Assembly: GCA_031277475.1 (NCBI GenBank)
Contig: JAITMJ010000001.1
Span: forward strand, 1 to 58,295
DNA length: 58,295 nucleotides
Origin: Flavobacteriaceae bacterium
GTDB taxonomy: Bacteria; Bacteroidota; Bacteroidia; Flavobacteriales; Weeksellaceae
Direction of reading: 5' to 3'
Shown: positions 17,124-42,976 of the stretch, piece by piece
How positions within the stretch are numbered: the stretch's first letter is position 1
Layout of the letters: each line of letters starts with the position of its first letter
Made by a program: the position numbers and the translations under genes
The notes under the pieces: generated by a model
Told to the model about the DNA's origin: nothing
The model's database searches: none
What the model saw: only the letters and a program-made list of their open reading frames with translations

Positions 17124-17699
17124 GCGATTGGCTTTTTGCTTGTCACTTGTCACACTGAGCGAAGTCGAAGTGTTGAACTTTATCACTTTGAACTTTGAAC
17201 GAAGTGTTGAACTTTGAAAAGTCCGTAGGTAAAAGTCTATGGAAAAAAGTAAAAACTTCCAAATCCGCACTTTTTCCCCTCTTTTGAGGGGCTGGGAGAT
17301 GAGGCAGGACAAAAGATTTGGGATTGCTAAATTATGTATCGTTTTTTAACAATTTTAGTGTTGTTTTTTCAATAATTTACATTCATAAAACCACCTATAG
17401 TTTAGAAATCCAGATTAATATTTAAAAAAACTTACTCATTCAAAAACATTTTCTGTCTGCCAATATGTCAGAAAACACACAAACACTATAAAATTCCAAA
17501 ACGGATTTTGAACGAAAGACATGACGAAACAACAACGGAGAAATAAAGTCCACTTTTCGTGGCAAATCCGTTTCGATGACTATATTTTCGCAATCAAAAT
17601 TCAATGAATCGTATTGCCGATTATATAGAAAACAATATATTGCTGTGGGATAAAGACATTTTTCAACACAAACCCTTTGAAATAGGAACACTGTTCCCC
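17124..17699. other. repeat-rich intergenic region after sdhA
   Basis: This 576-bp gap lacks sdhB and shows no credible gene. It contains a string of short dispersed repeats: a GCGATTGGCTTTTTGCTTG tract, the palindromic CACTGAGCGAAGTCGAAGTG at 17153-17172, several GTTGAACTTTGAA units, a decayed copy of the 85-nt hairpin repeat (about 17217-17268) and a CCCCTC...GAGGGG hairpin near 17277. The last 350 bp are featureless AT-rich DNA. Confidence 0.65.
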
Positions 17700-31204: not shown

Positions 31205-31849
31205 GTGTCAGCAACAAAAAATGATAAAGCAACGGAAGATTTGATAAAATCAACGGCGAAACGCTTGTTTTTCGGCGAAGGAAAATTCAATGCGACAACG
31301 CAAGAAATCGCCGATGAAGTGGGAATAAACCGCACGTTAATCCATTATTATTTTCGCTCGCGGGAAAATCTTTTCAACATTGTTTTTGAGGAAATTTGGC
31401 TGAACGAAGACCGAAAATCGAAAGACATTCTCTGCTCGGATTTGTCTTTTAAAGAAAAATGCGAAAAATACATTGATTATTCCATCAATCTCGCCTTGAA
31501 ATATCCGTATTTGTACACCTATTTGAACACACATTACGGAAAAAATGCCAAAAATATGGAAGAACGTGAAGAAATTTTCTCGCAGTTTTTCGCGCAATAC
31601 GAGCAGGAAATACAAAACAAACACATCGCCGACATCAAACCGATACAATTTCTGCTGAACCTGACATCGCTGGTTTCGCTGCCGATTATGATGAGACCGA
31701 TGTTTCAAGAAATTTTAAACCTGAACAACAAAGAATACGAAAAAATATTAAAAGAAAGAAAACAGATTATTATGGGGATGATTTTTAAAGCCCCCTATCC
31801 CCCAAATCGAAGATTCGCCGATTCCATTGAAAACAATAGAAATGAATGA
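31205..31849 (+). CDS. TetR/AcrR-family transcriptional regulator
   Basis: This 214-residue regulator has an N-terminal helix-turn-helix (residues 10-55; FNATTQEIADEVGINRTLIHYYF) and a ligand-binding helical domain. It uses a GTG start at 31205; an in-frame stop at 31196 rules out a longer form. It heads an RND efflux locus, as is usual for local repressors of such pumps. The last 20 or so residues (APYPPNRRFADSIENNRNE) are encoded by a dispersed repeat that also occurs near 22880, so the native tail was probably replaced or extended by repeat insertion. Confidence 0.9.
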   Translation: MSATKNDKATEDLIKSTAKRLFFGEGKFNATTQEIADEVGINRTLIHYYFRSRENLFNIVFEEIWLNEDRKSKDILCSDLSFKEKCEKYIDYSINLALKYPYLYTYLNTHYGKNAKNMEEREEIFSQFFAQYEQEIQNKHIADIKPIQFLLNLTSLVSLPIMMRPMFQEILNLNNKEYEKILKERKQIIMGMIFKAPYPPNRRFADSIENNRNE

Positions 31850-31954
31850 GGCAAAGGGGGCAAATGTCTGAACTATGATTGATTTGATTTTATTGAGGTT
31901 TAACACTTTGACAAAGTTGAAAATCTTTGACAAAGTTTGAAAAAACAAAAACTT

Positions 31955-33250
31955 ATGAAAAAATTAATAATTCTGCTTTTATCGGCAATCCCGTTATTAA
32001 GTTTCGGGCAAAAAATATTTACCGAAGATGTGAATAATTTTTGGAATGCCTACGATAAAATCGTTTTGGAAAAAGATTCATTAAAACAATTGGATTTAAT
32101 TAAAAATTTATACATCAACAAAGGAACGTCGGGTTTGGAGGGAATTATGAGAGCGAGAAGATATTCTGCGGAAGAATACGTTTATGCCATTAATCATTAT
32201 CCGAAATTTTGGCAATCGGTTCGAAATAATACTTTAAAATCAAAAGAAATTTCAAAGGAATTGGTGGGTGGAATAGAAAAATTAAAAGAAATTTATCCGA
32301 ATTTGAAACCCGTAAACATCTATTTTGAAATCGGCATTTTACGAACACCCGGAACTGCAATTGACGGAATGGCTGTAATCGGAAGCGAAGTTGCATTAAC
32401 GAACAAATCCGTAATCACAAGCGAATTTGACAACGTTTATCCTTATTTGAGAACCTTTTTTGATACGAATCCCATCAAAGATGTTGTGTTTTTGAATGTT
32501 CACGAATATGTTCACACACAACAAAATTTGCCTGTGGATAATTTGCTTTCTTATGTAATTTATGAAGGCGTTGCGGAATTTGTTGCGGTTAAAGCGTTGG
32601 AAATTTCGTCGCCAAATCCGCAGATTGAGTTCGGAAAAAATAATGCCGAAAAAATCAAATTAAGATTTGAAGAAGAAATGTTTTATATCAATAATCGCGG
32701 TAAATGGCTTTGGAGTAATGATTCTAATGAATTTGGAATGAGAGATTTGGGATATTACGTTGGCTATCAAATGTGTGAAAATTTTTATGAGCAGGCAGAA
32801 AACAAAAAAGGGGCAATCAAAACAATGATTGAATTGGATTACACCAATGATTCTGAAATTGACGATTTCGTAAAAAAATCGAATTATTTTTTGAAATCGC
32901 TCGACGAATTGTATCAAAATTTTGAGGCGAAACGCCCAACCGTAATCGGGATAAAACAATTTGAAAACAACAGTAAAAATGTCAGTCCGAACATAAAAGA
33001 AATAACGGTAGAATTTTCGGAACCTTTGAACGGACGTAGTACAGGCGTGGATTTTGGAGATTTGGGACAAGACGCTTTTCCTAAAAATGACGTAACGAAA
33101 AGATTTTGGTCAGAAGACCGTAAATCGTGGACTATTTCTGTGGATTTAGAACCAAATAAAAAATACCAAATACTGATTTCAAATAATTTTAGAACTGAAA
33201 ACGGCACTCCTTTAAAAGCATTTTTAATTGAATTTGAAACCGGAAATTAA
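31955..33250 (+). CDS. secreted HExxH metallopeptidase-like protein with C-terminal Ig-like domain
   Basis: This 431-residue protein has a signal peptide (MKKLIILLLSAIPLLSFGQ), a catalytic-looking region with HEYVH (in VFLNVHEYVHTQQN, about residue 190) and a downstream glutamate segment (YEGVAEFVAVKAL), a pattern like gluzincin or DUF2268 peptidases. Residues 330-431 form an Ig-like domain (ITVEFSEPLNG...TISVDLEPNKKYQILIS). The ATG at 31955 is preferred over a TTG at 31937. It lies between tetR and tolC but is unrelated to efflux and looks inserted. Upstream sits a doubled TTTGACAAAGTT motif. Confidence 0.75.
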   Translation: MKKLIILLLSAIPLLSFGQKIFTEDVNNFWNAYDKIVLEKDSLKQLDLIKNLYINKGTSGLEGIMRARRYSAEEYVYAINHYPKFWQSVRNNTLKSKEISKELVGGIEKLKEIYPNLKPVNIYFEIGILRTPGTAIDGMAVIGSEVALTNKSVITSEFDNVYPYLRTFFDTNPIKDVVFLNVHEYVHTQQNLPVDNLLSYVIYEGVAEFVAVKALEISSPNPQIEFGKNNAEKIKLRFEEEMFYINNRGKWLWSNDSNEFGMRDLGYYVGYQMCENFYEQAENKKGAIKTMIELDYTNDSEIDDFVKKSNYFLKSLDELYQNFEAKRPTVIGIKQFENNSKNVSPNIKEITVEFSEPLNGRSTGVDFGDLGQDAFPKNDVTKRFWSEDRKSWTISVDLEPNKKYQILISNNFRTENGTPLKAFLIEFETGN

Positions 33251-33270
33251 TGGAAAATAGCCGTAACACC

Positions 33271-33331
33271 TACTTTGACAAAGTTTGATCCTGAATTAAA
33301 TTCAGGATTTGTCAAAGTTTGAAAGAAAAAT
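33271..33331. repeat. nested inverted repeats before the 33476 gene
   Basis: TTTGACAAAGTTTGA and GTCAAAGTTTGA flank an inner palindrome ATCCTGAATT...AATTCAGGAT (33288-33309). The inner palindrome also occurs near 26374-26397. The arrangement looks like one repeat inserted within another. Confidence 0.6.
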
Positions 33332-33365
33332 AAGGGATTTCGGGGTCAAGCCCGCAATGACGACA

Positions 33366-33450
33366 GTCCGTAGGACTGAATGTGAATAACCGCAGGCGCA
33401 AGCCTGTGGAAAAAATAAGAACAACGAAAATCCGCTCGGAGAGCGGTACA
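33366..33450 (+). repeat. 85-nt three-hairpin repeat, copy 1
   Basis: The copy starts GTCCGTAGGAC, contains arms CCGCAGGC/GCCTGTGG and CCGCTC/GAGCGG, and ends 25 nt before the ATG of the small secreted protein at 33476. The same unit recurs upstream of 35531, 37135 and 39379. Confidence 0.8.
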
Positions 33451-33475
33451 ATTATAACAAAAGCAAAAAAAAATT

Positions 33476-33985
33476 ATGAATAAAATTAAATTCTTACTAT
33501 GCTTTTTGACGATTTTAATCTCGAAAATTTGTTTCGCACAAAATGGCATTGAATATAGAGGGGCTTTCACTTTAAAATTGACCGTTGATAGTTTAAAATT
33601 TTATGAACAAGACGTTTCATATTCCAAATATTTTGTAAAAGATAATGTTTTGCAAATTTATCCCGGAGAGCATTTATTTATTGAAGCCGACGTTGTGGGA
33701 AACGAAATAAAATCAATGAAAGTTGTAAAGGAAAATCTAAATCCGTCAAAAACCATCGAGTTGGAATTCCATCAAGAAACCAATGACAGAAACCACGAAA
33801 GAATGATTTTAAAAGTCAGCAATCCATTTGATAAAGAACTTAATTATGATGCGATGATGTTTGTTGTCGGAATGAGTAGTTGGATGAAAACAAGTATAAT
33901 CCCGATTCCTCCCAAATTAATGAACTTTGAATTATGGAACGATGTAATTATAACATTGGTTCTGGATAATTGGAGATTAAAATAA
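33476..33985 (+). CDS. small secreted hypothetical protein
   Basis: This 169-residue protein has a signal peptide (cleaved near SKICFAQ) and a beta-rich body ending in DVIITLVLDNWRLK. I recognise it only as a conserved hypothetical type found scattered in several phyla. There is no enzymatic motif. It is preceded by copy 1 of the 85-nt repeat and is followed 62 bp later by tolC, so it may be transcribed with the efflux genes without belonging to them. Confidence 0.65.
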   Translation: MNKIKFLLCFLTILISKICFAQNGIEYRGAFTLKLTVDSLKFYEQDVSYSKYFVKDNVLQIYPGEHLFIEADVVGNEIKSMKVVKENLNPSKTIELEFHQETNDRNHERMILKVSNPFDKELNYDAMMFVVGMSSWMKTSIIPIPPKLMNFELWNDVIITLVLDNWRLK

Positions 33986-34047
33986 TAATATTAAAACTCC
34001 AAAAAACCTTTAAACCTTTAAATCATAAAATACATTAATATAAAAAA

Positions 34048-35352
34048 ATGAAACTTATAACATATTTAGCAATTTGCACCTTCTCCGTTTCAGCGTTGCA
34101 AGCGCAAGAAAATCAAATGCTTACGTTGAAAGACGCGATAGATTTTGCGTTGCAAAACAAAGCCGATTCCAAAAAGGCAAAATTGGATGTTGAAAACGCG
34201 GAATATCAAATTGCGCAAGTGCGTTCCGCCGTTTATCCGGCGATAAATGCGAGCGGACAACTCGGCTACAACCCGATTTTGCAGCAAACCTACATCGAAG
34301 GTTTCGGTGCGATTGCGATGGGACAAACGTGGAACACCGCCGCCGCCGTTCAAATTCAGCAAAACCTTTTCAATCAGCAGGTTTTCACAGGTTTGAAAGC
34401 CGCAAAAACCACACGCGAATTTTATCAACTCAATTCCGAACTCACAGACGAGCAAGTGATTGAACGTGTGGCAACGGCTTATTACAACGTGTTTGTCGCG
34501 AAAAAGCAACTCAACACCATCGACAGCAGTTATGTTTTCACCGAAAAAACGCGGAATATTATTAAAAGCCTGTTCGACAATGGTTTAGCGAAAAAAATCG
34601 ACCTCGACCGCGTCAATGTTTCCCTCGTGAATATTCAATCTACGCAGCAACAACTCGCCAATGCCGTAAATCTGCAGGAAAACGCACTGAAATTTTATAT
34701 CGGAATGCAGATTTCGCAACAAATCACGCTTTCCGATGAGGATTTTGAAATCAATAAATATTTGTTAAACGATTCTGTGGAAGTGGAAAATCTCACCCAA
34801 ATGAAAGTTTTGGAAAAGCAACATCAACTTTTGGAACTCCAGAAAGAAACCGTGAAAGCCCGATTTTATCCCACACTTGCGCTGACGGGAACTTACGCCT
34901 ACGTTGGTTTGGGAAATAAATTTCCGTTGAGCAGCGGCACATATTGGTCGGATTACGCCACGATTGGTCTCAGTTTGAACATTCCGATTTTCAACGGATT
35001 TGCTATAAAGTCCGATGTACAAATGGCTGACATTGGTTTGCGAAAACTGCAACAAGATATTGACGATTCCAAACTCGGTTTGCAATTGGACTATCAAAAT
35101 GCAAAAGCGCAAATTGAAAACAACCTTTCGGTGATTGATTATCAGAAGAAAAACGTGGAATTGGCGCAGGAAGTGGTCGGCAATACGCAAAATAATTATA
35201 TGCAAGGTTTATCAAATCTGACGGATTTATTAGATGCCGAAAATGCTTTGGTTCAAGCAAAAAACAATTATTCCAACGCGGTTTTGCAATACAAACTCGC
35301 TGAGGTTCAGTTGCTTAAATCGAAAGGGGAACTTTTGAGGTTGAAAGAGTGA
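34048..35352 (+). CDS. TolC-family outer-membrane efflux protein
   Basis: This 434-residue protein has a signal peptide (cleaved near ALQAQE) and two OEP repeats of long alternating helices, for example DAIDFALQNKADSKKAKLDVENAEYQIAQVRSAVYPAI read in parts (DAIDFALQNK, AEYQIAQVRSAVYPAI) and the later NYMQGLSNLTDLLDAENALV. It forms the outer-membrane exit duct of the tripartite pump with the HlyD-like adaptor at 37906 and the RND pump at 39827. In a normal locus these would be adjacent; here accessory genes lie between them. Confidence 0.93.
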   Translation: MKLITYLAICTFSVSALQAQENQMLTLKDAIDFALQNKADSKKAKLDVENAEYQIAQVRSAVYPAINASGQLGYNPILQQTYIEGFGAIAMGQTWNTAAAVQIQQNLFNQQVFTGLKAAKTTREFYQLNSELTDEQVIERVATAYYNVFVAKKQLNTIDSSYVFTEKTRNIIKSLFDNGLAKKIDLDRVNVSLVNIQSTQQQLANAVNLQENALKFYIGMQISQQITLSDEDFEINKYLLNDSVEVENLTQMKVLEKQHQLLELQKETVKARFYPTLALTGTYAYVGLGNKFPLSSGTYWSDYATIGLSLNIPIFNGFAIKSDVQMADIGLRKLQQDIDDSKLGLQLDYQNAKAQIENNLSVIDYQKKNVELAQEVVGNTQNNYMQGLSNLTDLLDAENALVQAKNNYSNAVLQYKLAEVQLLKSKGELLRLKE

Positions 35353-35355
35353 AAT

Positions 35356-35382
35356 GCCCCCTGTCCCCCAAAGGGGGAACAA
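35356..35382. repeat. CCCCC/GGGGG hairpin repeat after tolC
   Basis: GCCCCCTGTCCCCC pairs with the GGGGG downstream. The same family recurs at 23163-23195, 35568-35599 (inside a coding sequence) and about 39752-39811. Confidence 0.55.
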
Positions 35383-35427
35383 TGGTAAAATTGAACATTG
35401 AATTTTTTGAACATTGAATTTTAAAAA

Positions 35428-35512
35428 GTCCGTAGGACTGAATGTGAATAACCGCAGGCGCAAGCCTGTGGAAAAAATAAGACCCCAAAAAATCCGCTCG
35501 TAGAGCGGTACA
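35428..35512 (+). repeat. 85-nt three-hairpin repeat, copy 2
   Basis: Same three stems as copy 1. The third hairpin has loop GTA instead of GGA between CCGCTC and GAGCGG. It ends 18 nt before the LRR gene start at 35531 and is preceded by two TTGAACATTGAATTTT-like units. Confidence 0.8.
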
Positions 35513-35530
35513 AAAAAAGAAAGCAAAAAA

Positions 35531-36934
35531 ATGAAAAATATAATCTTAATCGCAAGTATTTTCCATCTTTTCCCCCTTTGGGGGACAGGGGGCTTTTACG
35601 CCCAAAATATAAAATTTGAGGACGAAAATTTTAAACAAGCCCTGATTTCCGGAGGTATTGATAAAAATCGGGATAATGAAATTTCGATGCAAGAGGCGGA
35701 AGTGGTCGACTTTTTAGATGTAGCAGACAAAAATATTGCTTCTTTGCAGGGAATAGAATATTTTACGAATTTAAAAAAATTAGATTGTTCCGATAATATA
35801 CTTGCAACGCTGAATGCTTCTAAAAATATTAATTTAAAATATTTAGACTGTTCCGGAAACGGAAACGGATTTATGGCATTAAATGTTTCTAAAAATGTTA
35901 ATTTAAAGGAATTATATTGTTATGAAAACTTCCTTGAAACGCTAAATGTATCTAATAATGTTAATTTGGAAGTATTAGATTGTGGTTTTAATCAACTCAC
36001 AATTTTGGATGTTTCTAAAAATATCAATTTAAAGAAATTGGGATGTAATAATAACCAACTTACCGCATTGGATGTCTCCAAAAATACTCATTTGTCGGAA
36101 TTAGTTTGTTTTGCAAATCATCGACTTACAAGTTTGGACGTTTCCAAGAATATTAATTTAAAGAATCTGAAGTGTTCTGTTAATCAACTTACAACCTTGG
36201 ATGTTTCCAACAACATTAATTTAGAAGTTTTAGAATGTTCATTTAACCAACTTACAACCTTGGATGTTTCGCAAAATACCGCATTGACAGAATTGTGGTG
36301 CGATAACAATCCATTGGGTTCTTTGGATGTTTCAGATCATATTAATTTAAGAGATTTAGATTGTGCACATAACCAACTCACGGCATTGGATATTTCAAAT
36401 AATGTTAATTTAGAAATTTTAGATTGCAATACTAATGAACTTACTGCATTAGATGTTTCTAATAATGTTAGTTTACACATATTGGTTTGTAATGATAATC
36501 CACTTACAAAATTGGACGTTTCCAAGAACATTAATTTAAAAAGAATCAATTGTTCCAATAATCAACTTACAGCATTAGATATTTCTAAAAATATTAATTT
36601 GCAAACTTTGGGGTGCGACAGTAATCAACTTACAACATTGAATATTTCCGATAATGTTAATTTGGAGACTTTGGTTTGTCGTTACAATCTACTTAAAATA
36701 TTAGACGTTTCTAAAAATATTAATTTAACACATTTACAATGTCGTAACAATCAACTCTTTTCATTGTTTATGAAAAACGGAATAAATGAAGGTGTCCACG
36801 ATTTTAGAAACAACCCCAACCTCGCATTTATTTGTTGCGATGAAAACGATTTAGAAAAAATAAAAAATTATGTAACACAAAACAACATCGGCAAAAACCC
36901 GAAAATTACTTCGGATTGCGATGGTAAAAAATAA
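35531..36934 (+). CDS. secreted leucine-rich-repeat protein
   Basis: This 467-residue protein begins with an unusual signal region (MKNIILIASIFHLFPLWGTG, then GFYAQ), in which HLFPLWGTGG is encoded by a dispersed repeat (35568-35599). Residues 38-52 look like an EF-hand (DKNRDNEISMQEAE). Residues about 75-415 are some 15 repeats of 21 residues around LDVSKNINLKxLxCxxNQLT. LRR surfaces usually bind proteins. No T9SS sorting domain is present. It is unrelated to efflux and preceded by the 85-nt repeat. Confidence 0.82.
   Translation: MKNIILIASIFHLFPLWGTGGFYAQNIKFEDENFKQALISGGIDKNRDNEISMQEAEVVDFLDVADKNIASLQGIEYFTNLKKLDCSDNILATLNASKNINLKYLDCSGNGNGFMALNVSKNVNLKELYCYENFLETLNVSNNVNLEVLDCGFNQLTILDVSKNINLKKLGCNNNQLTALDVSKNTHLSELVCFANHRLTSLDVSKNINLKNLKCSVNQLTTLDVSNNINLEVLECSFNQLTTLDVSQNTALTELWCDNNPLGSLDVSDHINLRDLDCAHNQLTALDISNNVNLEILDCNTNELTALDVSNNVSLHILVCNDNPLTKLDVSKNINLKRINCSNNQLTALDISKNINLQTLGCDSNQLTTLNISDNVNLETLVCRYNLLKILDVSKNINLTHLQCRNNQLFSLFMKNGINEGVHDFRNNPNLAFICCDENDLEKIKNYVTQNNIGKNPKITSDCDGKK
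35568..35599. repeat. dispersed CCCCC/GGGGG repeat inside a signal peptide
   Basis: CTTTTCCCCCTTTGGGGG followed by ACAGGGGGCTTTTA matches intergenic copies elsewhere, but lies in frame in the LRR gene and encodes LFPLWGTGGF. Confidence 0.7.
35800..36770 (+). repeat. tandem 63-bp repeats of the LRR domain
   Basis: About 15 units of 63 bp encode the 21-residue LRR. The TTGGATGTTTC(C/T)AA(A/C)AA core is strongly conserved at DNA level, which suggests recent expansion. Confidence 0.75.
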
Positions 36935-36997
36935 AGGGATTGCGGGTCAAATGCGGAAAACTTTGAATATTGAACTTTAAACATTGAATTTCAAAAA

Positions 36998-37081
36998 GTC
37001 CGTAGGACTGAATGTGAATAACCGCAGGCGTAAGCCTGTGGAAAAAATAAGAACCCCAAAATCCGCTCGTAGAGCGGTACA
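36998..37081 (+). repeat. 85-nt three-hairpin repeat, copy 3
   Basis: Same stems as copies 1 and 2, 84 bp, with loop GTAA in the second stem region. It ends 53 nt before the ATG at 37135. Confidence 0.8.
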
Positions 37082-37134
37082 AAAAGAAGGGTGTTTTTGA
37101 ATTAGCGGAGAGCGAGCGATAAAGAATACAGAAT

Positions 37135-37830
37135 ATGAATAAAATTGATATAGATTTTGATTTTAGGCAAGACAGCAAATGTGGCGACCCCGATTCGGAT
37201 AGTCTAAAACTGTATGAACTTCATAAAGTTTTATGGAATAAGATGTTGCCGTGCGGAAAAATTTTTGATTTGGAAATTATTACATCAAGAGGTAAATATG
37301 GCAGATTACTTATAAAAAATAATTTATGTGATAATTTGTCAAGTGATAGAATGTGTCCGCATTTTGACGGAAAATATAATGATAAATTTAATGGATGGTT
37401 ATCTGATTTTGAGAGAGCGGAATTACAATATAAAGTCCGTACTATTGGAGGATATATAATTTTCCCCGCACACCAAAAGAATGGCTTTACAATAAACCAA
37501 GCCAGAGGAGTAAGCAGAGCAATTTGTGACAGGTTTGATTTAACTTTGGAGAGCATTCGACGTTTTTATAAAGGAGAGGAAAGTCCGCTCTATGACACAC
37601 TTATAAGATACAAAGATTTTTTTGATTTGTTCGTTGATTTTAGAGGTTATGTTGATTTCTTTATGTTGCAGGATTTTATAGACGAAAAAGAACAAATAAA
37701 ATTTTCCTTACCGTTTGATAATTTTAATCGCCCACCATTACCTCAAACAGTTAATGAATATAAACAATATCAAATACATACAATAGATTTGATAAATAAT
37801 AGAAACAAGAGAATTTTTAAAAGTCTATAA
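37135..37830 (+). CDS. DUF6994-like protein
   Basis: This 231-residue soluble protein has the opening DFDFRQDSKCGDPDSDSLKLYELHKVLWNK (read in parts: DFDFRQDS, GDPDSDS, YELHKVLWNK), the middle IGGYIIFPAHQKNGFTINQARG and the later LTLESIRRFY and LFVDFRGYVDFFMLQDFID. This order matches my memory of the DUF6994 family, whose function is unknown. There is no signal peptide. It sits between the LRR gene and hlyD, preceded by copy 3 of the 85-nt repeat. Confidence 0.72.
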   Translation: MNKIDIDFDFRQDSKCGDPDSDSLKLYELHKVLWNKMLPCGKIFDLEIITSRGKYGRLLIKNNLCDNLSSDRMCPHFDGKYNDKFNGWLSDFERAELQYKVRTIGGYIIFPAHQKNGFTINQARGVSRAICDRFDLTLESIRRFYKGEESPLYDTLIRYKDFFDLFVDFRGYVDFFMLQDFIDEKEQIKFSLPFDNFNRPPLPQTVNEYKQYQIHTIDLINNRNKRIFKSL

Positions 37831-37905
37831 AAAAAAACACATTTTACAAAAGAAAAATCAAAATACAATATACAACAATACATTAATACAATAACAAAAA
37901 AAATC

Positions 37906-38973
37906 ATGGTCAAAAAAATAATCACAGGAATTGTAGTAGTCGGACTGATTGGTTTGGCAATTTGGAAAGTGGCGGACAACAAGAAAAAATCGCAAGCCGA
38001 AACCGCGATTGTGGCAGCGGAAAATGAGGCTGTCGCCGTGAATGTGGCATCCGCAAAATACGAAAATATCAATACGGAATACACCGCAAACGGAACTTTC
38101 GAGCCGCTTCAACAGTTGAATTTCACCAGCGAAACCAGCGGAAAAATTATCCAAGTTTTCGTGGATGAAGGCAGTTTTGTTCGGGTCGGGCAAGTGTTGG
38201 CAACCGTGCGCGCAGACCAACGAAACATCAATGTTTCTACAGCTCAAGCGGCGTATCAACAAGCACTCGCCGATAATCAACGCTACGAAAACGCTTACAA
38301 AACCGGCGGCGTTACGCAGCAACAATTAGACAATTCGCGGCTGCAACTGAAAAATGCAAAAGCGCAACTCGATTTGCAACACATCAATTTGGGCGATTCG
38401 CAAATCCGAGCGACCATCAACGGCGTTATCAACGAGCGCAAAATTGAACCCGGCTCGTATGTCGCTTTGGGAACGTCAATGTTTGACATCGTGAACGTTT
38501 CTACTTTGAAACTCCGCGTGATGGTGGACGAATCTCACGTTGCAAACTTGGTTTTAGGACAAGAAATCGCGGTAAAATCCAACGTGTTTCCCGACCAAAA
38601 ATTCGGCGGAAAAATCACGTTCATCGCTCCGATTGCAGACGCCTCACTGAATTTTCCGGTAGAAATCCAAATCGAAAATACATCCGACCGCAAATTGAAA
38701 GCGGGAATGTACGGAACCGCAGTTTTCACGGCGGCAAGCGGCGCAAGCACGCAAAATATTTTGGTCATTCCGAGGTCGGCTTTCGTGGGCGGCGTTCAAA
38801 ATAATCAGGTTTTTGTGGTAAACGGCGATGCGGCAAAACTGACGAACATCGTTTCCGGCAGAAATTTCGGCGAGAAAATTGAAGTCCTCAGCGGTCTGAA
38901 AAACGGCGAAATAGTAGTAACCGGCGGACAAATCAATCTGACGGACGGAGCGAAAATAAAAGTGATAAAATAG
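37906..38973 (+). CDS. RND efflux periplasmic adaptor (HlyD/MFP family)
   Basis: This 355-residue adaptor has an N-terminal membrane helix (IITGIVVVGLIGLAIW), a barrel-sandwich/lipoyl part (NFTSETSGKIIQVFVDEGSFVRVGQVLATV, read in parts), an alpha-helical hairpin with coiled coil (AAYQQALADNQRYENAYKTG) and a C-terminal beta-barrel domain. It connects the RND pump at 39827 to the TolC-family duct at 34048. The order of the core genes is conserved, but the spacing is broken by accessory genes. Confidence 0.92.
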   Translation: MVKKIITGIVVVGLIGLAIWKVADNKKKSQAETAIVAAENEAVAVNVASAKYENINTEYTANGTFEPLQQLNFTSETSGKIIQVFVDEGSFVRVGQVLATVRADQRNINVSTAQAAYQQALADNQRYENAYKTGGVTQQQLDNSRLQLKNAKAQLDLQHINLGDSQIRATINGVINERKIEPGSYVALGTSMFDIVNVSTLKLRVMVDESHVANLVLGQEIAVKSNVFPDQKFGGKITFIAPIADASLNFPVEIQIENTSDRKLKAGMYGTAVFTAASGASTQNILVIPRSAFVGGVQNNQVFVVNGDAAKLTNIVSGRNFGEKIEVLSGLKNGEIVVTGGQINLTDGAKIKVIK

Positions 38974-39123
38974 CGGTTGGCAAATGGCTTTTGGCTTTTG
39001 GCAAAAGTCGTAAATGTCGCAAAAGTCCCTAAAAACAAGGGAAATTTGAAAAGTTGAAAAATGTGGTTTAACACTTTGTCAAAGTTAAAAATCTTTGACA
39101 AAGTTTGGAAAAAAGGGGAATCC

Positions 39124-39156
39124 AAACCTTCAAGGTTTCAAAAACCTTGAAGGTTT
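39124..39156. repeat. perfect inverted repeat AAACCTTCAAGGTTT
   Basis: Two 15-bp arms, AAACCTTCAAGGTTT and AAACCTTGAAGGTTT, are separated by CAA. Each arm is itself nearly palindromic. It may act as a terminator or be a repeat of unknown role. Confidence 0.7.
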
Positions 39157-39210
39157 AAGTAAAAAAAACACGGGATTGCGAGTCAAGCCCGCAATGACGA
39201 CAAAAGAAAC

Positions 39211-39296
39211 GTCCGTAGGACTGAATGTGAATAACCACAGACAAAAAGCCTGTGGAAAAAATAAGAATAATGAAAATCCGCTCGGAGAGCGGTACA
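39211..39296 (+). repeat. 85-nt three-hairpin repeat, copy 4
   Basis: The middle stem reads CCACAG paired with CTGTGG, where copies 1-3 have CCGCAGGC with GCCTGTGG; the G-to-A change restores full pairing. The other stems are as in copy 1. It ends 82 nt before the ABM-like gene. Confidence 0.78.
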
Positions 39297-39378
39297 AAAA
39301 AAATGAAAAATTTATGAATAACATCAGATTTTATTATGTCTTTGGACAATTTTAATCTTTAAATGTACATTTTAAAAA

Positions 39379-39690
39379 ATGAAAATAATAACAAGAATTT
39401 GGCACGGCATTGTGAAAAAAGAAGATGCCGAAATTTATAAAACGTATGTTGAAAATACAGGTCTTAAAAATTACAGAGAAATTGACGGTAATATTTCCGC
39501 TAAAATTCTGATGAGAACAGAAAACGATATTTGTCATTTCCTAACCGTAAGTGAATGGAAATCAATAGAAAGCATAAAAAAAATTGCCGGCGATGATTAT
39601 GAAAAAGCACGTTATTATCCCGAAGATTACAAATATTTACTTGAATTTGAAGAATTTGTAAAACATTATGAAACAATAATTTATGAATAA
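39379..39690 (+). CDS. ABM-like small protein
   Basis: This 103-residue protein has the short alpha/beta pattern of the antibiotic biosynthesis monooxygenase (dimeric ferredoxin-like barrel) fold: ITRIWHGIVKKEDAEIYKTYV at the start, then ILMRTENDICHFLTVSEWKS, YYPEDYKYLLEFEE. Such proteins are small oxygenases, heme-degrading enzymes or sensors; no specific activity can be assigned. It lies between hlyD and the RND pump gene, following copy 4 of the 85-nt repeat. Confidence 0.65.
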   Translation: MKIITRIWHGIVKKEDAEIYKTYVENTGLKNYREIDGNISAKILMRTENDICHFLTVSEWKSIESIKKIAGDDYEKARYYPEDYKYLLEFEEFVKHYETIIYE

Positions 39691-39751
39691 GATGAATTCA
39701 AATTTATGAGAAAAACATTAAAAAATTAAAAAAACGTAAAACAATCAGAGC

Positions 39752-39811
39752 CTTTTCCCCCCTTTCTCCCCTCCTTTGGAGGGGTCGGGGTAGGAGGGGA
39801 CAGGGGGCTTA
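39752..39811. repeat. CCCCTCC/GGAGGGG hairpin repeat before the RND pump gene
   Basis: CCCCTCCTTTGGAGGGG and the surrounding GGGGTAGGAGGGG/CCCCC tracts form a GC-rich hairpin ending about 15 nt before the ATG at 39827. It is the same family as the repeats at 23163 and 35356. Confidence 0.6.
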
Positions 39812-39826
39812 CAAATACAAAACAAA

Positions 39827-42800
39827 ATGAATTTACCTAAAATATCCATCACTCGTCCCACGCTTGTCGTGGTTTTGTTCACCATTCTCACGCTCGGAGG
39901 ATTGCTCAGTTACAAACTTTTGAGCTATGAACTCATCCCCAAATTTGAAATCAACGTCATCACGATTTCTACGGTTTATCCGGGCGCATCGCCATCGGAA
40001 ATCGAAAATACCGTAACCAAAAAAATCGAGGACGGCGTTTCGTCTATTGAAAATATCAAACACATCACGGCACAATCTTTCGAAGGTTTGTCGGTGGTAA
40101 TTATTCAATTAAACGACGGCGCAGACGTGAATCTCGCTTTAAATAATGCCCAGCGGAAAGTGAATTCCATCGTTGCAGATTTGCCGGACGATGCTCTGGC
40201 ACCTTCGTTAGACAAATTTTCGATGGACAATCTCCCCGTGATGCAAATTGCGGCAACTGCCAATATGAGCGGAACCGATTTCTACGATTTGCTCGACAAA
40301 AAAGTTCAACCCGAAATTTCGCGGATTCCGGGCGTGGCGCAAGTGAACATCATCGGCGGACAAGAGCGTGAAATACAGGTAAATATAGACCAAACCAAAC
40401 TCGAAGGCTACGGACTTTCCCTGCCGCAAGTTCAGCAATTAATCCTCGCTTCCAACCTCGATTTCCCGACAGGAAACATTAAAACCAGACAAAATACCAT
40501 TCTGATTCGGCTTTCCGGAAAATATAAAACTGTGGACGAACTCCGAAATATGGTGATTTCCTCCGGCGCAAATCAAGTGCGTTTGGGCGATTTTGCCGAT
40601 GTTCAGGACGCATCAAAAGACATTGAAAAAATTTCGCGGTTCAACCAAAATTCCGCTATCTTATTGCAAATCCTTAAACAAACAGATGCCAATACTGTGG
40701 AAGTAAGCAAATTAGCGACTGAAAAAATCACTAAATTACAAGAAGATTACAAATCGGAAAACCTAAAATTAACCGTTGCCAACGATCAAAGCACATTCAC
40801 ATTGGAAGCCGCAAACCACGTGATGCTCGACCTTGTGTTGGCAATCGTTCTCGTGGCATTCGTGATGTTGCTGTTTTTGCACAACATCAGAAACGCATTT
40901 ATCGTGATGGTTTCCATTCCCGCCTCGTTGATTGCCACATTTATCGGAATTTATTTTATGGGATACACGCTGAATATGATGTCGCTGGTAGCACTTTCTT
41001 TGGTGGTCGGAATTTTGGTGGACGATGCGATTGTAGTTCTCGAAAACATTCATCGGCACATGGAAATGGGAAAAAGCAAAATTCGTGCGGCGTACGACGG
41101 AACCACCGAAATTATGTTCACCGTAATGTCCATCACGCTCGTAATCATCGTGGTTTTCTTTCCGATTTCCATTATCGATCAAATCGTTGCGAATATTTTA
41201 AAACAATTCTGCGTTACGGTAATGATTGCCACCGCATTTTCACTTTTGGCATCTTTCACCATCGTTCCGTGGCTTTCCTCGCGTTTCGGAAAATTAGAAA
41301 GAATGGAAGGCAAAAATCTTTTCGGAAAATTCATTCTTTGGTTCGAGGCGAGAATGGATGCCTTCGCACATTGGATTTCCGATTTGCTCGAATGGTGTTT
41401 GAAAAGTTGGCGGCATAAATTAGCCACATTATTCATCGTCATCATCCTGTTTTTCAGTTCTTTTTTACTTCCGGGTTTTGGATTTATCGGTGGCGAATTT
41501 TTTCCTCAAATGGACCGAGGCGAATTTTTAGTTCGGGTAGAACTTCCCAAAGATGCTTCATTAGAACAAACCAATTTTGCCGTTCAAAAAGCGGAAAACT
41601 ATTTGCGTGCAAAATCCGAAGTTGTGAATGTGATTTCCACTGTCGGGCAAGTTACCGGCGGATTGGCGGTTCAGGCTACGCCTTACAAAGCTGAAATCAA
41701 CGTAAAACTGACCAATAAAAATGAACGCGAAACCAATACCGTGATTTACGCCGCCATTGTAAAACGCGAACTCGAAAAAATTCTTGTCGGTGCAAAAATT
41801 ACGACTGCTCCTGCCTCGATGGGCGGAGGAAATAATCCGCCGCTGCAACTCGTCATCACGGCTCCGAATGTGGAATCGGCTTTGGCTTTTGCAGAAAAAA
41901 CCGAAGATCTTTTACGAAAGATAGACGGTGCCACAGAAATCGATCTTTCCGTAGAAGACGGAATGCCGGAAATCAACGTGCAAGTGGACAGAGACAAAAT
42001 GGCGATGCTCGGTCTGAATTTATCAACAGTCGGAACTACGATGCAAACGGCGTTTAACGGAAATACCGATGCAAAATTCCGCGCCGGCGACAATGAATAC
42101 GACATCAACGTGCGATACGGCGAATACAACCGCTCCAATATTGACAACGTGCGAAATATCGTTTTCGTGAATAATCTCGGTCAGCCAATAAAACTCTCGC
42201 AATTCGCGGATATTTCGGAAGATACCGGTCCTACGCAATTAGACCGATACGACAGAACGCCGTCTGTAACCGTTTCCGCACAAGTAGTCGGTCGCGCCGC
42301 AGGAAGCGTAGCCGACGATTGGCAAAAAGAATTTGAAAAATTAAAACGACCGGCAGGCGTGAATTATCAATGGACAGGAACTCAAGAAATGCAAAGCACC
42401 GGTTTCGGCGTTTTGGGATTGGCACTTTTGGCGGCGATTATTATGGTTTATCTGATTATGGTCGGGCTCTACGACAACTACGTTTATCCGTTTGTGGTGC
42501 TGTTTTCCATTCCGCTTTCGCTCATCGGCGTGTTCGTGATTTTAGCATTAACCAACAATACACTGAATATTTTTACCATTTTGGGAATGATTATGCTCAT
42601 CGGCTTGGTTTGTAAAAACGCGATTTTGCTCGTGGATTTCACCAATCACAGAAAAGCCGAAGGCGAATCTACAAAAACCGCATTAATCCAAGCAAATCAC
42701 GCAAGACTTCGACCGATTTTAATGACCACCATCGCGATGGTTTTCGGAATGTTACCGATTGCACTCGCCAACGGACAAGGCGCGGAAATGACGAAAGGTT

Positions 42801-42976
42801 TGGCTTGGGTCATCATCGGCGGATTGATTTCATCGCTGTTCCTGACTTTAGTCATCGTTCCCGTAGTTTATTCGCTTTTCGACAGCGTGATGGCGCGTTT
42901 CGGCAAGAATAAAAAAATTGACTACGCAAAAGAAATCGAAGCGGATTATGAAAAGTCGGATGTGGAGGATGAGTAA
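39827..42976 (+). CDS. RND efflux pump inner-membrane subunit (AcrB family)
   Basis: This 1049-residue protein has the twelve-helix RND layout with two large periplasmic loops. Hallmarks include the N-terminal ITRPTLVVVLFTILTLGG helix, the TM4 proton-relay region LVVGILVDDAIVVLENIHRH, and the second-half GMIMLIGLVCKNAILLVDFTNH. It pumps drugs or other amphiphiles by proton motive force with the HlyD adaptor and TolC duct of this locus. It is full length with a usual C terminus. A terminator-like hairpin follows at 42983. Confidence 0.96.
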   Translation: MNLPKISITRPTLVVVLFTILTLGGLLSYKLLSYELIPKFEINVITISTVYPGASPSEIENTVTKKIEDGVSSIENIKHITAQSFEGLSVVIIQLNDGADVNLALNNAQRKVNSIVADLPDDALAPSLDKFSMDNLPVMQIAATANMSGTDFYDLLDKKVQPEISRIPGVAQVNIIGGQEREIQVNIDQTKLEGYGLSLPQVQQLILASNLDFPTGNIKTRQNTILIRLSGKYKTVDELRNMVISSGANQVRLGDFADVQDASKDIEKISRFNQNSAILLQILKQTDANTVEVSKLATEKITKLQEDYKSENLKLTVANDQSTFTLEAANHVMLDLVLAIVLVAFVMLLFLHNIRNAFIVMVSIPASLIATFIGIYFMGYTLNMMSLVALSLVVGILVDDAIVVLENIHRHMEMGKSKIRAAYDGTTEIMFTVMSITLVIIVVFFPISIIDQIVANILKQFCVTVMIATAFSLLASFTIVPWLSSRFGKLERMEGKNLFGKFILWFEARMDAFAHWISDLLEWCLKSWRHKLATLFIVIILFFSSFLLPGFGFIGGEFFPQMDRGEFLVRVELPKDASLEQTNFAVQKAENYLRAKSEVVNVISTVGQVTGGLAVQATPYKAEINVKLTNKNERETNTVIYAAIVKRELEKILVGAKITTAPASMGGGNNPPLQLVITAPNVESALAFAEKTEDLLRKIDGATEIDLSVEDGMPEINVQVDRDKMAMLGLNLSTVGTTMQTAFNGNTDAKFRAGDNEYDINVRYGEYNRSNIDNVRNIVFVNNLGQPIKLSQFADISEDTGPTQLDRYDRTPSVTVSAQVVGRAAGSVADDWQKEFEKLKRPAGVNYQWTGTQEMQSTGFGVLGLALLAAIIMVYLIMVGLYDNYVYPFVVLFSIPLSLIGVFVILALTNNTLNIFTILGMIMLIGLVCKNAILLVDFTNHRKAEGESTKTALIQANHARLRPILMTTIAMVFGMLPIALANGQGAEMTKGLAWVIIGGLISSLFLTLVIVPVVYSLFDSVMARFGKNKKIDYAKEIEADYEKSDVEDE

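Follow-up and report, generated by a model that had tools for sequence, protein, structure and literature searches.

Sense-oriented hairpin repeats paired with subclass 1.2 Y1 transposases in a Flavobacteriaceae genome and its relatives

The repeats described in this work, four copies of which reside within an efflux operon in a 58,295-nt stretch of DNA (the window) from a Flavobacteriaceae bacterium, are likely to be non-autonomous, REP-like elements mobilised in trans by a Y1 HUH transposase of subclass 1.2, their antisense copies having been lost by selection. That they might be mobile repeats inserting upstream of genes was one of the options listed in the original prediction, and this option is supported by the dispersal of the copies, the presence of a cognate Y1 transposase gene between inverted copies, the occurrence of lineage-specific families, and the presence or absence of elements at orthologous gene pairs.

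The four copies had been placed on one strand, and both their positions and their common orientation are confirmed by exact repetition and by the scores of R1, a covariance model built from 18 copies found in the genome. Because the window copies and sister copies are among those used to build R1, the scores of copies 1-4 (98-112 bits, E 3e-19 or better) are not independent of the model, and it is the exact repeat, along with the ~27 copies in the genome, which independently tells that the matches are not due to chance. The decayed fifth copy surmised near 17217 was located by the same model. Elements and adjacent accessory genes, the latter given as context, are the following:

17190..17318, plus strand: decayed fifth copy, in a convergent gap, with an insertion in h3 (R1 27.7 bits, E 5e-4)
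33364..33451, plus strand: element copy 1 (R1 111.9 bits); h1 33364-33378, spacer 33379-33389, h2 33390-33409, linker, h3 33432-33446, tail TACAA
33476..33985, plus strand: accessory ORF of 169 aa, without a Pfam match, immediately after copy 1
35427..35513, plus strand: element copy 2 (R1 112.1 bits), in the gap between the OEP (TolC-like) gene and the LRR gene
35531..36934, plus strand: accessory leucine-rich-repeat (LRR) gene, after copy 2
36997..37082, plus strand: element copy 3 (R1 109.2 bits), in the gap between the LRR gene and the DUF6994 gene
37135..37830, plus strand: accessory DUF6994 gene, after copy 3
39211..39297, plus strand: element copy 4 (R1 97.8 bits), in the gap between the MFP gene and the 103-aa ORF; one A-C mismatch in h2, sense strand
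39379..39690, plus strand: accessory ORF of 103 aa with no Pfam match, after copy 4

Each element starts with a hairpin, h1 (5-6 bp, 3-nt loop), followed by an 11-nt spacer, AATGTGAATAA, and by h2 (8 bp, 4-nt loop); then come a linker which is rich in A and varies in length, h3 (6 bp, 3-nt loop) and, finally, TACAA or CACAA. The core is formed by h1, the single-stranded spacer of ~11 nt, with TAA or TAG at its end, and h2. Similar to h1 in loop type, h3 may represent the other end of the element. The same three hairpins had been recognised earlier, except that stem 1 measures 5-6 bp (CAGTCC/GGACTG or AGTCC/GGACT), and not 4. The last paired base lies ~20-90 nt from the next ATG, in keeping with the 18-82 nt formerly proposed. 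RNA folding of copies 1-3 returned exactly the three hairpins (z -5.3 to -6.3). The fold predicted for the sense strand of copy 4 is different: a G-to-A change does turn a G-T wobble of h2 into an A-T pair, the repair of pairing already noticed, but a second G-to-A change produces the mismatch. No Rfam family matched the window above the gathering score.

The structure is conserved well beyond the window. In an alignment of 18 elements from several lineages 97.8% of the cells pair, and 15 of the 20 pairs have changed on both sides; covariation scores 0.591, compared to 0.243 in shuffled alignments and at most 0.114 in slid structures. Covarying stems, together with the strong orientation bias described below, are the opposite of what would have spoken against a mobile repeat, and the claim stands. 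Wobble pairs in h2 fit the sense strand better than its complement, both in the genome of the window (15 vs 2) and in relatives (12 vs 1), the copies counted sharing ancestry. The strand which acts in single-stranded form, be it RNA or DNA, is therefore probably the sense strand.

When copies are counted across the genome (2.99 Mb in 156 contigs), ~27 R1 matches plus fragments are found. The Y1_Tnp domain (PF01797) was matched at five places, and an intact Y1 (HUH) transposase gene, coding for 149 aa, resides at 17053-17502 of contig C27. A direct element copy ends shortly 5' of its start codon, a degenerate inverted copy starts 3' of its stop codon, and two further direct copies are found within ~1.3 kb. 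The protein carries the motifs EHIHIL and YIKNQREHH, residues H53, H55, Y113, Q117, H120 and H121 being invariant. It scores 77.5 bits with Pfam Y1_Tnp and 55.7 bits with NCBIfam NF033573, whose cut-off is 55; IS200/IS605 is the nearest enzyme family by sequence, and a comparison with solved structures gave no sequence match. In Quentin et al. 2018 (PMC6006769), subclass 1.2 is defined by a Y---Q--HH motif and a length of ~148 aa, its members are described as relatives of IS200 transposases, and neither REP sequences nor typical IS200 ends are given for them. Judged by motif, the C27 protein (149 aa, YIKNQREHH) belongs to this subclass. The original prediction had suggested looking for a REP-type (RAYT) transposase; the one found is an IS200-like protein of subclass 1.2 and not a classical RAYT.

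The genome has a second gene of this kind, L031, likewise set between inverted elements. These belong to another family, identical in architecture but with other stems and loops, for which 19 matches, full or partial, were counted. The third gene, L033, is broken, and remnants of a further element variant adjoin it. Two pairs of second-family copies, L297 (contig C86) and L298 (contig C74), are close inverted pairs resembling REPINs.

Relatives of the transposase were found in 83 of the 148 genomes of the family sample. Beside the genes of the closer relatives lie units like GAACCCGAAGGGTTC-AATATGAATAG-CCGTAGGTGAAACCTATGG. Flanks were monitored at 80 transposase loci from named genomes, mainly Bacteroidota, with a handful of records labelled Planctomycetaceae, Spirochaetaceae, Kiritimatiellaeota and Verrucomicrobia, and with the isolate Oligosphaera ethanolica. 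A descriptor including a TA[AGT]-CC foot detected the core upstream in direct orientation in 36 of 78 cases and reversed in 4; on the downstream side it was inverted in 33 of 77 cases and direct in 7, shuffles being near zero. Freed from any sequence constraint, the descriptor found the core in 90 of 155 flank windows, with at least one for 63 of the 80 genes, compared to 1/155 shuffled windows and 3/141 windows 1 kb away. In most cases ATAA or ATAG forms the foot of h2, and GTAG does so only once in 90; the classical GTAG REP was discarded on these grounds. By analogy of position the foot recalls the GTAG guide of classical REPs, and TA[AG] before h2 is a candidate cleavage guide, of the sort that a tetranucleotide 5' of the hairpin provides for single-strand cleavage in IS200/IS605.

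Elements and close transposases tend to occur in the same genomes, since R1 matches are found in 17 of the 23 genomes with a close transposase vs 16 of the 125 without (p 7e-9). In the 16 genomes which carry elements and no close transposase, the elements may be relics. Six genomes have a close transposase and no R1 match, and there the elements differ. In genome G090 most dispersed copies are no more than 300 kb from the transposase gene; copies near the transposase gene have been reported for some RAYTs (PMC2817692).

Elements have been gained or lost among related species. Orthologous gene pairs were identified which host elements in three related genomes and none in a fourth, and one G090 element is replaced by another repeat at the orthologous gap in genome G123. 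Some copies are common to related species at orthologous gaps. Among the relatives with usable synteny, which are too diverged and whose gaps hold other repeats, no empty site exact to the base could be identified.

The orientation of the copies is manifestly uneven. Genes were called in four genomes with a home-made program based on codon usage. With transposase flanks left out, 66 of the 70 copies have both neighbours on their own strand, where random orientation in the given arrangement of genes would yield 37%; many copies are related by descent, some of the 70 being common to G090 and G123. In the genome of the window alone the figure is 22/23 (p 4e-9). Among 34 further copies from some 20 genomes, 30 are on the strand of both neighbours, 2 reside in convergent and 2 in divergent gaps, and none is antisense to both. 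Altogether, 96 of the 104 copies for which both neighbours were called reside between same-strand genes, and only 1 is antisense to both. Numerous copies are tightly fitted between adjacent co-directional genes, the median distance to the downstream gene being 14 nt. The second family is less strict, since of its seven readable copies in the same genome 3 agree with both neighbours, 1 is antisense and 3 reside in divergent gaps. The strand lock is hence not universal.

IS200/IS605 and RAYT enzymes cut and join single-stranded DNA at hairpins, and the subclass 1.2 transposase would in the same way cut and join the sense strand of the element. Antisense insertions would expose operons to hairpins which, with their T-rich tracts, resemble terminators, and would be purged by selection, leaving mainly sense copies. 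When copies are read backwards, the 8 nt following h2 and h3 indeed contain on average 4.1 and 4.6 T residues, respectively, vs 1.1 and 0.7 in the sense reading; antisense copies may have been removed because of these tracts. Selection alone does not obviously explain the scarcity of copies in convergent and divergent gaps. Insertion could instead be coupled to transcription, the displaced non-template strand being used with sense-only entry, and the hairpins would then be intercistronic RNA structures. We regard this as unlikely; if true, it would mean transposition aimed by the direction of transcription, and not by replication alone. It is equally doubtful that the element works chiefly at the RNA level and is kept for this reason, as a folded leader (5' or intercistronic) which tunes the stability or translation of operon genes, the transposase being no more than its origin. 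The sense orientation, the wobble pairs, the short gap to the downstream gene, and the copies which related species have in common at orthologous gaps fit such a role; yet single-stranded DNA explains the sense wobbles equally well, downstream genes have no common function, sequences are lineage-specific and tied to the local transposase, elements are gained and lost between related species, and Rfam offers no match.

It is improbable that orientation reflects replication only, with entry into the lagging-strand template and agreement with genes as a by-product of the leading-strand gene bias. Use of the lagging-strand template is known for IS608 and ISDra2 (PMC6006769), and 65 of 72 copies agree with the local GC skew. 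In genomes G090 and G053 the agreement (30/31 copies) exceeds the 72% expected from gene direction alone (p 4e-4), so that a lagging-strand component may add there, and replication may contribute in addition to gene direction. In the same two genomes, though, 31 of 34 copies agree with both neighbours vs 53% predicted by replication alone (p 1.5e-6), and replication as the only source of orientation was rejected on this comparison. Moreover, several copies in the genome of the window agree with their neighbours and disagree with the skew, and contig C118 hosts both orientations within 10 kb.

The least credible explanation is that the element is a gene-cassette joining site, entering operons along with an accessory gene, as the original prediction had also envisaged. 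In the window each accessory gene within the efflux operon comes after an element, and extra ORFs beside an element were noticed in other core operons of the same genome as well. The operon (31205-42976; TetR, OEP, MFP and RND genes) is split by five extra genes, and is contiguous in 17-18 relatives: the OEP gene adjoins the MFP gene in 18/18, and the RND gene comes next in 17/18. The notion of a repeat placed before accessory genes thus holds for the window. It does not hold in general, as core genes, too, have copies between them elsewhere. Two of the accessory genes were compared with their homologues: those of the DUF6994 gene were found in 8 and those of the PIN gene in 4 of 146 family genomes, and no element was detected upstream of any of them, three PIN paralogues of the window's genome included, with a descriptor which also missed the known element before the PIN gene itself and may therefore overlook variants. 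In G090 and its relatives, copies are set between conserved gene pairs and the extra gene is absent. For the window, the reading which fits best is that of an operon which has gained genes, and whose gaps have also received elements.

The element likely mobilised in trans by the subclass 1.2 enzyme would belong to a known kind, that of REP/RAYT systems, and the novelty would lie in the transposase partner, the architecture and the unusual sense-strand lock. In REP/RAYT systems (Nunvar 2010, PMC2817692; Quentin 2018, PMC6006769), a Y1 HUH gene similarly sits between inverted copies of a hairpin repeat, intergenic copies are dispersed, repeat families are specific to their transposase, and copies may cluster near the gene. 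The differences are that the protein is of class 1 (subclass 1.2) here, and of class 2 (TnpA-REP, Y--NP motif) there; that the GTAG/GTGG foot of the hairpin is missing here; that hairpins are two to three, in a fixed order, vs one in REPs; that copies are in the tens, vs hundreds for REPs; and that orientation is strongly biased toward the sense strand, whereas it alternates in REPs. The system probably works like REP/RAYT, and probably is one in the broad sense. Since the foot is not GTAG and the transposase is not of class 2, it has not been filed in the classical REP/RAYT family. The repeats accompanying TnpA of subclass 2.6 in Bacteroidetes are close by description (Quentin 2018): they occur in the same phylum, lack GTAG, lie beside a Y1 gene and have copies elsewhere in the genome, but the transposase motif is YIH[QN]NP, vs Y---Q--HH here.

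Like IS200/IS605 elements (IS608, ISDra2), the repeats have hairpins of one polarity which could serve as left and right ends. In IS200/IS605, however, the gene is set between one left and one right end and moves with them as a unit, whereas complete elements, in inverted orientation, are found here on both sides, and the copy number of the transposase gene is low, unlike in IS200/IS605. Palindrome-associated derivatives of IS200/IS605, of the PATE type, are short, have end hairpins and no gene, and are mobilised in trans; the likeness to the present elements, which are short and gene-less and have end hairpins, is one of description. To our knowledge, neither a tie to subclass 1.2 nor a sense-strand lock is a known feature of the PATE type. 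These elements were not found described in the open-access papers searched, a set that excludes the supplementary repeat sequences of PMC6006769. As subclass 1.2 had been described with neither IS ends nor REP sequences, its substrate had no known candidate. The elements, found beside most of the close members sampled, mainly in Bacteroidota, are the likely substrate, and the function of the enzyme becomes directly testable. The sense-strand bias poses the question of whether selection acts against terminator-like antisense copies, or insertion is guided by transcription.

Other repeats occur in the window. An inverted pair of CCCCCTTTGGGGGACAGGGGGC is found at 35572-35593 and 35356-35377, one copy being in frame within the signal-peptide region of the LRR gene; the peptide FPLWGTGG, as at this copy, recurs in an unrelated outer-membrane protein of contig C83. 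Two more dispersed repeats, GGGATTGCGGGTCAAGCCCGCAATGACGACA (33326-33365 and 39163-39202) and the TTTGACAAAGTTT palindrome (31894-31945 and 39062-39113), adjoin elements, and several repeat families therefore occupy the same gaps. A more distant transposase clade, with YILNQEEHH or similar motifs, includes L032 in the same genome as well as L059 and L062-L064; the flanking hairpins are of the GCTCCGTAGGAGCGACCTGTTAATAG type, with no clear h2, and possibly represent another repeat system. Lastly, at locus L035 (G000:C133:20592-20912) a Y1_Tnp domain (46.8 bits) is in frame within an Eco57I-type restriction-modification protein, where it sits between the methyltransferase halves; this is either a genuine domain fusion or a transposase inserted in frame.
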